Shown: positions 17,298 through 61,936 of the stretch, piece after piece | Layout: each line of letters starts with the position of its first letter | How positions within the stretch are numbered: position 1 is the first letter of the stretch | DNA from: Ignisphaera sp. | Lineage (GTDB): Archaea > Thermoproteota > Thermoprotei_A > Sulfolobales > Ignisphaeraceae | NCBI GenBank assembly: GCA_038735125.1 | Contig: JAVYNU010000001.1 | Span: forward strand, 62,001-126,000 | Direction: 5' to 3' | DNA: 64,000 bases | The notes under the pieces: model-generated | Seen by the model: the letters and a program-made list of their open reading frames with translations, nothing else | What the model was told of the DNA's origin: nothing | Databases searched by the model: none | Made by a program: the position numbers and the translations under genes

Positions 17298-17360
17298 AGC
17301 AGTACACCACAAAAACAATTTACTCAAAAACTTATAAGCTTATCAGTACCAATTAGTATA

Positions 17361-17545
17361 TGGGATGTGGGGAAGCCGACGAGCGATGAGCAGTTGAGAG
17401 ATAAGGATGAAGCACCCCAAACCCCTCTACATTCGCCGATGGGAGCCTGGCAGAGGAGTGAGGGAGGCTAACTGATGAGACCAGGCTTCCGCAAGCGGGG
17501 GCAGAGGAAGCAATGAGGGATGAAGACCCACATAAAAAGTCAGAC
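17361..17545 (+). ncRNA. Structured RNA-like segment in the TnpB element (copy A)
   Basis: About 185 bases, roughly 80% identical to the segment at 61640–61824 on the opposite strand. A TATA-like CTTATAAG ends about 23 bases before the first GGGATGTGGGGAAGC. GAGCCTGG (17443–17450) pairs with CCAGGCTT (17481–17488). In the other copy the same stem is kept with different wobble pairs. It also has a CCGCAAGCGG hairpin and several GATGA boxes. It is divergent from tnpB, so it is not an obvious TnpB guide RNA, which normally overlaps the tnpB 3' end. Transcription is inferred. Confidence 0.5.
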
Positions 17546-18170
17546 CTCTAGAGCTATGTCTATGGCCAGCATCTTTATCCTGTCTATATCTCTATTTCCT
17601 CTGGCATACTCGTTGCCGAAAAATGTTAGCTAGCCTGGTATGCCATCGAATTCCTCGACGGCCTTCTCCAGAACCCCTGCCTCAATATCTATTCCCAGCT
17701 CTTTGAAGCCGGCCTTTAGGAACTCTTTTGAGCGAGGCCCTCTAAGCTTTTGAGCCTCATCAAAAGCTAAGCTATTATGATTCTCCTCCTGTTGAGAGCG
17801 TCGAAAAGCGATGAAAGTGTGAGGGAGCCCCTGCCCCTCCACTTGATCTCTACCTCAACACCCCTAATACTTATACCCGATATCGACTTGAGGACATCGT
17901 AGAGTCTGTCAAGTCTCGATGAAAATGCTTTCGAAAGCAGATTATACAAATCACGCAAGCCATAGTTGACACGCAAATCCCTCAAATCAATTACAACACT
18001 AGGAATGCTAACCTCATTGAGAAAAACATTCAGGAGGGAAGTCTTGCCAACCTCCTAATACCAGAAATAATTATAATAGGTACGTCTACATTAGCATGAA
18101 GCAACTCGAGCTCGCGATCCCTCCCAAAAAGCTCACTTCTACTAGTCTTGGGCCTAGGATCAAACAGCAC

Positions 18171-33280: not shown

Positions 33281-33439
33281 ATTAGTCTTTCCTTTGATTT
33301 ATTGATTAGATCTTATATGCTGAAAGCGCTCTTCGCTGAGCTATGATGAAGAGCAATCCAGCTGAGTTTTTAACTTCTACACCTAATTCTGAGGGTTCTG
33401 GTCTGAACGATGTTTTTAATTGCTTTTGAATATTTTTGA

Positions 33440-33625
33440 TTTCTTCGCTTCATCCCCTCATCTCTCGTTCTCCCCCTTCCTCTGGTTTCATTGTTCATTG
33501 GGGGAGCTCTTTGGGGAGACCCACGCTCCCCCGCATACGCTTGGAGTGCTCTCAGCCATAGCATGCGCCCTCAGGCATCCACCTGCAAATCTGGTGGATA
33601 AATACCTTCATAGGACATCGCCAAG
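33440..33625 (-). ncRNA. Structured RNA candidate R1 (shared hairpins with 61465–61620)
   Basis: A ~190-base intergenic segment with GC-rich hairpins in AT-rich DNA. In RNA sense: a 7-bp hairpin (33577–33599), the segment CTCCAAGCGTATGC, hairpin 1 GGGGAG/CTCCCC with loop CGTGGGT (33513–33531), hairpin 2 CTCCCCC/GGGGGAG with a 23-base loop containing AATGAAACCAGA (33470–33506), and a tail GAGATGAGGGGATGA. The two last hairpins and their loops recur at 61.5 kb with different but paired stem bases. A CTTATAAG box (33646–33653) lies upstream. Confidence 0.6.
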
Positions 33626-33748
33626 ACAATTTATTAGAACACAAACTTATAAGCTTTGTGTTTAAAAGTAACTAGACATAATTAAAAATCAACAAAAACC
33701 AGCTACGGCTATGCAGAAGCTGCTAGAAGTTGGTTTGAGGCGTTGTCA

Positions 33749-41489: not shown

Positions 41490-41625
41490 GTTGACCCTTG
41501 GTGCAGGTTCATTAGCTTAACCTGCACCTCATGGAGCTTTGTGATTTTGTGAGTTCTCCGAATGCTCTCAAGCTCAATGAGAACCCAAGTGGGATGCAGG
41601 GAAAAAGAGATGAGGGGATGACAAC
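41490..41625 (+). ncRNA. Hairpin-rich intergenic segment R2 (possible RNA)
   Basis: A perfect 10-bp hairpin GGTGCAGGTT/AACCTGCACC with a 9-base loop (41500–41528), then GTTCTC/GAGAAC (41553–41584), then AGAGATGAGGGGATGA, a 16-base string identical to the tail of R1 at 33.4 kb. A TTTTAATT box lies about 25 bases before the first hairpin. The hairpins of R1 and R3 are not recognisable here, so membership in the same family is weak. Confidence 0.35.
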
Positions 41626-41662
41626 AACCAATATGAACTCATATGAGACTTGAACCCCACAC

Positions 41663-61320: not shown

Positions 61321-61464
61321 AATAACACTTCGATTAGCTTATTATTTTTCTCTATGCTACAAGGATCCTAACCATCTATACACAATATTTTCATTAAGAG
61401 TTTAAAAACTTGAATAATACTAGGCAAGATAAAACTGGGTTCACCTCTTTATGTATTTGTATAT

Positions 61465-61620
61465 GTTTTTATATGGTGTGTCATCGGCTCATTCTTTGAA
61501 AACCCACCCTTCGATCTGGTTTCATCCATCATTGGGTGGGTGCCCCACGACCCATGACGTGGGGCGTGCGCTTTGAGGGTACGTAGATAGATGTTCATTG
61601 CCCAATAGCGTCTCTGTCGG
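61465..61620 (-). ncRNA. Structured RNA candidate R3 (partner of R1)
   Basis: In RNA sense: CTCAAAGCGCACGC, hairpin 1 GCCCCACG/CGTGGGGC with loop TCATGGGT (61542–61565), directly followed by hairpin 2 ACCCACCC/GGGTGGGT with a 24-base loop containing GGATGAAACCAGA (61502–61541), then a GAATGAGCCGATGACAC tail. Segment order, loops and tail match R1 at 33.4 kb, while stem bases differ but still pair. It begins right after the element copy B and lies upstream of the DUF460 gene. Confidence 0.6.
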
Positions 61621-61633
61621 CTATAACCCTTTC

Positions 61634-61936
61634 TCTAGAGGTCTGACCTTTATGTGGGTCTTCATCCCTCACGGTTTCCTCTACCCCCGCTTGCGGGAGC
61701 CTGGTCTCATCAGTTAGCCTCCCTCACCCCTCCGCCAGACTCCCATCAACGAAGGCAGAGGGGTTCGGAGAGCCTCATCCCTATCTCGCAACCGCTCATC
61801 GCTCATCAGCTTCCCCACATCCCATACCAGATTATTACTGATAAGCTTATAATCTTTTGCAAAAACCCGGAGACAGAAATCTCCCAACAACACCCACGAC
61901 AAACCCAATCACATAATAAACTCTTGACACTTTCAC
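61634..61936. mobile_element. Short, ORF-less derivative of the TnpB-type element
   Basis: Its ends match those of the element at 16058–17553: GTGAAAGTGTCAAGAG (ending at 61936 on the plus strand) against GTGAAAGTGTTGAGA, and GTCAGACCTCTAGAG at the other side. Only about 85 bases separate the first end from the TATA-like box, where the full copy has tnpB. It starts immediately after the RIO2 stop codon. This is the structure expected of a non-autonomous copy. Confidence 0.5.
61640..61824 (-). ncRNA. RNA-like segment, copy B
   Basis: About 80% identical to 17361–17545 in reverse orientation. The stem GAGTCTGG/CCAGGCTC (61735–61742 with 61697–61704) is kept with different wobble pairs. The 5' part has GCTGATGA and CCGAACCCC, which could form a C/D-like kink between GGGG and CCCC; these are degenerate in copy A. 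A TATA-like ATTATAAG (61846–61853) lies upstream. Confidence 0.5.

Follow-up and report, generated by a model that had tools for sequence, protein, structure and literature searches.

Two covarying hairpin RNAs on an Ignisphaera contig as very probable omega-RNA ends of IS607-type, TnpB-encoding transposons

The question raised by this locus is what kind of RNA is specified by two similar hairpin regions, R1 and R3, found in the window, i.e., the whole stretch of 64,000 nucleotides that was analysed. A sequence-only reading had assigned them to an uncharacterised family of functional, structured RNA, mainly because unlike stems were combined with alike loops. The order of motifs, the loops and the tails are present as it described, on the minus strand at both places, and so are the stems: GGGGAG/CTCCCC (stem 1; 33531-33526/33518-33513) and CTCCCCC/GGGGGAG (stem 2; 33506-33500/33476-33470) in R1, and GCCCCACG/CGTGGGGC (61565-61558/61549-61542) and CCCACCC/GGGTGGG (61540-61534/61509-61503) in R3. 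The motifs do lie in the intervals first assigned to them (33440-33625 and 61465-61620), but the functional unit is larger, the R1 element covering 33393-33706 and R3 ending at 61437. We conclude that R1 and R3 are very probably the omega-RNA (reRNA) ends of IS607-type, TnpB-encoding transposons of a Thermoproteota archaeon.

A covariance model was constructed from 18 relatives with R3 left out, so that R1 is a training sequence and R3, which was recovered in the window, a held-out one (scores in Table 1). In a 49-copy alignment, which was fitted to this model and therefore leans towards it, standard pairs occupy 97.8% of pair cells, each of the 13 pairs in the two stems has both-sided changes, and the score for covariation reaches 0.546 versus 0.206 +/- 0.015 for shuffled data (0/500). 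For the 18 aligned copies without R3, both-sided changes were detected in 10 of the 17 tested pairs, and in stem 2 CCCC/GGGG is flipped to GGGG/CCCC between copies. The view that unlike stems with alike loops denote a real structured RNA has thus held, covariation being far over that of shuffled data and R3 being found when held out. Since R1 folds unremarkably when taken alone (minimum-energy fold, z = -0.74 in single-sequence folding; R3 folds somewhat better, z = -2.33), the case for structure rests on comparison. Loops 1 and 2 may pair (GGGU with ACCC): 89% of cells are able to form this pairing, no two-sided change is seen, and it is given here as a suggestion.

Search of all 4227 Rfam families gave no match at gathering score for the R1 or R3 region, and permissive thresholds gave for both regions chance matches only, below the cut-off and mostly to C/D-box families; this homologous RNA is therefore outside Rfam. 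A possible C/D-box sRNA (sR2-like, 19.5 bits, under the Rfam cut-off) lies at window 33313-33367 on the plus strand. Searching with the covariance model, as the sequence-only reading had proposed, revealed further homologues in 56 of the 197 genomes of the order. As a dispersed repeat, R1 has relatives in its own genome (G000) at C1:581, C2:196 and C8:94, as well as several in G001, G002 and G004 and a single one in G015.

In G000 and in related genomes, relatives of R1 and R3 lie immediately after tnpB, the gene for the Cas12-like nuclease TnpB, or overlap its 3' end, and the DNA 5' of many copies translates as a TnpB C-terminus (...DPRNTSSTCPRCG...CRKCGFKRDRDFVGAINIYL...) leading straight into the RNA. 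The copy G000:C8:41 has an intact 411-residue TnpB frame (NCBIfam guided_TnpB, 116 bits; Pfam PF07282; RuvC D/E/D motifs visible). A full element is found at G001:C85, where a serine recombinase with an N-terminal HTH, as expected of an autonomous IS607 element, is followed by a TnpB 48% identical to that of G000:C8:41 (E 1.6e-128), by an omega-RNA with hairpins much like those of R3 (GCCCCATG/CATGGGGC and CCCACTC/GAGTGGG), and by the right end GCGAACCC; this order places the family with IS607. An origin from IS200/IS605 (Y1) elements was rejected: PF01797 is missing from G000, and G004 and G007 are the only genomes with Y1 elements, whose TnpB is but distantly related. As is characteristic of TnpB omega-RNAs, the RNA lies at or just after the tnpB 3' end on the same strand, R3 having a tnpB remnant directly 5', and the covarying scaffold runs up to the right end (...GAACCC), after which a unique guide sequence begins. 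Since the homologues sit at the tnpB 3' end in IS607-type elements, the RNA of R1 and R3 is a TnpB omega-RNA (reRNA) of IS607 type, a kind already known, of which this family is not yet in Rfam. What was claimed of structure, covariation, homologues and position outside Rfam stands, but the word uncharacterised has to be given up. What looked like an orphan RNA is in this way explained by a widespread archaeal TnpB family, absent from Rfam, whose guide RNA it provides.

The reading frame of tnpB-bearing copies continues through the omega-RNA, in G000:C8:41 to residue 411, and one may ask whether the conserved hairpins are a by-product of protein coding, the omega-RNA being read in frame as a C-terminal tail of TnpB. 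This is hardly credible, since the frame is gone from tnpB-less copies (with an early stop in R1), which still keep 96.6% of pair cells (310/321; shuffled mean 288, maximum 295) versus 99.0% in tnpB-linked copies, and since covariation includes the flips within stem 2.

The features belonging to these omega-RNA ends are listed in Table 1.

Table 1. Positions of transposon-derived features in the window
Feature	Position	Strand	Description and basis
R1 element	33393..33706	minus	314-bp tnpB-less (MITE-like) derivative; left end GTAGCTGG..., right end ...CAGACCAGAACCC
Host AGCC, candidate TAM	33707..33710	minus	directly 5' of R1 left end
TATA-like motif AAAGCTTATAAG in R1 left end, candidate promoter	33646..33657	minus	position conserved in solo and tnpB-bearing copies, by inspection
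tnpB start remnant in R1	33577..33611	minus	ATG AAG GTA TTT ATC CAC C... encoding MKVFIHQICRWM; hairpin ATCCACC...GGTGGAT
R1 omega-RNA (reRNA) core	33450..33544	minus	stems 1 and 2, GATGAG..GATGA tail; covariance model 107.6 bits, and covariation
Presumed 20-nt guide of R1, TCAGAATTAGGTGTAGAAGT	33373..33392	minus	host DNA 3' of right end; unique flank beyond ...GAACCC
Frameshifted tnpB C-terminus remnant of R3 (IADRDAIG / AMNIYLRTL)	61575..61624	minus	matches TnpB C-terminal motif DRDFVGAINIYL
R3 omega-RNA core	61481..61575	minus	recovered by model built without R3; 37.7 bits, E 9.4e-9
R3 right end ...AAAGAGGTGAACCC	61437..61480	minus	near-identical to right ends of tnpB-bearing G000:C8:41, C2:62 and G001:C85
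Presumed guide of R3, AGTTTTATCTTGCCTAGTAT	61417..61436	minus	flank beyond GAACCC
Third, degenerate omega-RNA relic, another TnpB subfamily	41529..41657	plus	ends ...GAGACTTGAACCC; model 21.9 bits, E 3.8e-4

The junctions of R1 were set by the empty site of the relative G009, together with alignment to solo and tnpB-linked copies: the filled form is GCATAGCC, the 314-bp element and TCAGAATTAGG, and the empty form in G009 is GCACAGCC joined to CAGAATTAGG. R1 is absent also from the same site in G003, giving two close relatives with an empty site, and its presumed guide matches the empty-site sequence of G009. About 17 first codons of tnpB are left in R1; they match the start of intact tnpB (MKAFIRLGCRWMSEG), are kept in those solo copies that align over this part, and are joined to the tnpB 3' end, i.e., the parent was internally deleted. 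Eight further solo copies align with R1 over the left end, the tnpB start and the right end. R1 has the properties of a MITE, being short, non-coding and multicopy, with the two ends of an internally deleted parent kept, and solo copies of this type are present in G000, G002 and G004, with 15 more in G092. Inverted repeats between the two ends of R1 itself are no higher than in shuffled sequence; they are clear in the family members G1_C72 and G4_C36.

These empty sites also bear on whether R1 and R3 could be host small-RNA genes or mRNA leaders, e.g., for the downstream methyltransferase or the 661-aa protein, with a fortuitous likeness to transposons. Each region precedes genes of its own (minus) strand, as such a reading would have it, but we regard it as very improbable, because G009 and G003 lack the insertions at these loci, copies occur in unrelated contexts, some of them inside genes, and conservation includes the left and right ends, beyond the hairpins alone. 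On the evidence of the empty sites, a host leader or riboswitch was rejected.

R3 groups with the tnpB-bearing elements G000:C8:41 and C2:62, their right ends being almost the same (...CATATACAA.CATATAAAGAGGTGAACCC), and is read as a decayed element that keeps a remnant of the tnpB 3' end; the R3 block is missing from G009 and from G003. The third relic is 79% identical over 99 bp to L139, a copy whose core comes after a TnpB-like zinc-finger motif. A G+C-rich dispersed repeat of about 230 bp, unrelated to omega-RNA, is located at window 61633-61859 (minus) and 17325-17553 (plus), with 86% identity between the two; it has a TATA-like CTTATAAGCTTATCAGTA in front and repeated GATGAG/GATGAAG boxes, its 17.3-kb copy is without Rfam match at E up to 1, and in G092 an omega-RNA MITE (L167) is followed directly on its 3' side by a third copy (72%).

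Two tnpB elements of G000 interrupt genes: that at C8:41059-42291 an M24 (Xaa-Pro) peptidase gene (junction AAGAGAGCC and AATAGAGAT), and that at C2:62940-64200 a GH29 fucosidase gene (junction TTCACAGCC and GAGAACTGG). On removal of the elements in silico, both frames rejoin exactly with no duplication. Absence of target duplication and GG (here CC) at termini and target are as in IS607, and the junctions, AGCC at the left and ...ACCC at the right, have CC at both, fitting the IS607 exchange site GG (PMC6188088). Comparison of sequences thus demonstrates the anatomy, past mobility, TnpB association and RNA-level conservation of these elements. Among 30 insertion sites, AGCC stands before the left end at 24 and GCC at 26, the fourth base out being A in 28 and the third G in 30, with farther positions unconstrained; over the window, 0.4% of positions carry AGCC. 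For IS607 transposases, which exchange at GG, there is no other clear preference (PMC6188088). The extra A-G may therefore reflect TnpB selecting its target-adjacent motif, and AGCC, a left-flank motif that could serve as TAM, is predicted to be the TAM of these TnpBs.

Several known systems are close to the present one. The reRNA of IS607 TnpBs with RAGATH-18, for which a location outside the coding sequence and a TAM of AGGAG/GAGGG have been reported (PMC11061315), is likewise found at the tnpB 3' end, with a guide from the flank and a TAM adjoining the target; the present RNA differs in that it matches no Rfam family, RAGATH-18 included, that tnpB reads through it, and that its site motif is AGCC. 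The sotRNA/omega-RNA families RF02656 and RF02657 (PMC12558985) are also archaeal and overlap the tnpB 3' end, but they come from IS200/IS605 elements of Halobacteria, and no Rfam match was obtained here. SisTnpB1 of Sulfolobus islandicus (PMC10640517) resembles our case as a thermophilic archaeal TnpB with a 3' omega-RNA and a TAM deduced from the left-end flank, whereas it belongs to IS200/IS605 with TAM TTTAA or TTTAT, in place of IS607 type with AGCC. Like the serine-transposase elements ISC1926/IS607 (PMC6188088), the present elements are inserted without duplication, have GG (CC in our case) at the target and both termini and, in some members, carry short end repeats; unlike them, the copies in the window are without tnpA, and the site motif AGCC goes beyond the (G)GG that IS607 TnpA prefers.

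By sequence, the autonomous order is left end, serine tnpA, tnpB, omega-RNA and right end, and in derivatives tnpA is lost first and tnpB after it. DNA that matches the omega-RNA guide beside a TAM is cut by TnpB (PMC8612924, PMC10640517), and such cutting at empty sites is believed to be its way of retaining the transposon (PMC10278001). Applied to the present family, transcription of the omega-RNA would run on into host DNA, so that every insertion would yield an RNA having its own flank as 3' guide. TnpB bound to this RNA would cut an empty copy of the site, recognised by AGCC beside the guide match, and the filled copy would be spared because the right end puts ACCC, not AGCC, before the guide sequence. 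Repair of the cut from the element-bearing copy would then keep the element in place. Copies without tnpB, R1 among them, would depend on TnpB supplied in trans. Neither a Y1 nor a serine TnpA was detectable in G000, and mobility there must therefore be past or lost. No R1-subfamily TnpB of G000 is intact (the pieces measure 174 + 71 aa and 126 aa), and the sole intact TnpB of the family there (411 aa) is of the R3 subfamily; R1 may thus already be inert in this genome.

The 17 R1-type copies of G092 bear on whether tnpB-less copies function at all. One of them is accompanied by an intact TnpB of 421 residues and another by a TnpB fragment; the remaining 15 are tnpB-less MITEs, each with a different guide. 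The hairpins and right end are retained in these 15, and most of them also show the same left end, the TATA-like motif and an AGCC/AGTC site. The presence of the 15 MITEs in a genome with one intact cognate TnpB suggests, and does not prove, that they are trans-acting omega-RNA loci. We tentatively propose, as a possibility that falls short of an even chance, that tnpB-less MITEs in these archaea are standalone, individually transcribed omega-RNA genes, by which one TnpB would be served in trans with many guides (15 in G092), and that the MITE family as a whole, acting as a dispersed guide array, parasitises this nuclease in order to be retained. It is nearly an even matter that tnpB-less copies are instead dead remnants, whose omega-RNA is never made and which persist only because their ends are needed in cis for mobilisation. 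The absence of TnpA and the broken R1-type TnpBs in G000, the slightly lower pairing in solos mentioned above, and the plainly degraded state of G004:C87 and of the 41.5-kb relic are consistent with dead remnants, while the retained parts of the 15 solos in G092 and the intact TnpB of the same subfamily argue against them. Non-autonomous elements bearing omega-RNA are known from a bacterium, and this would lessen the novelty of the trans-guide idea. In the open-licence literature, no description of tnpB-less elements bearing omega-RNA was found, and the multi-guide arrays of tnpB-less MITEs, in which a single RNA-guided nuclease may be shared by many elements that lack one of their own, are the part that could be new. 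For thermophilic TnpBs, the present analysis provides natural pairs of guide and empty site, AGCC as a predicted TAM, and a calibrated model.

Other genomes have 11-21 copies of divergent omega-RNA subfamilies, several of them tnpB-linked. One divergent subfamily has an extra terminal helix (CCCCGAGGC...GCCTCGGGGAAACCC) and is represented by L134, L136, L137, L138, L140 and L141 and by the genomes G097, G100 and G072; genomes with 11-21 model matches occur in this set.
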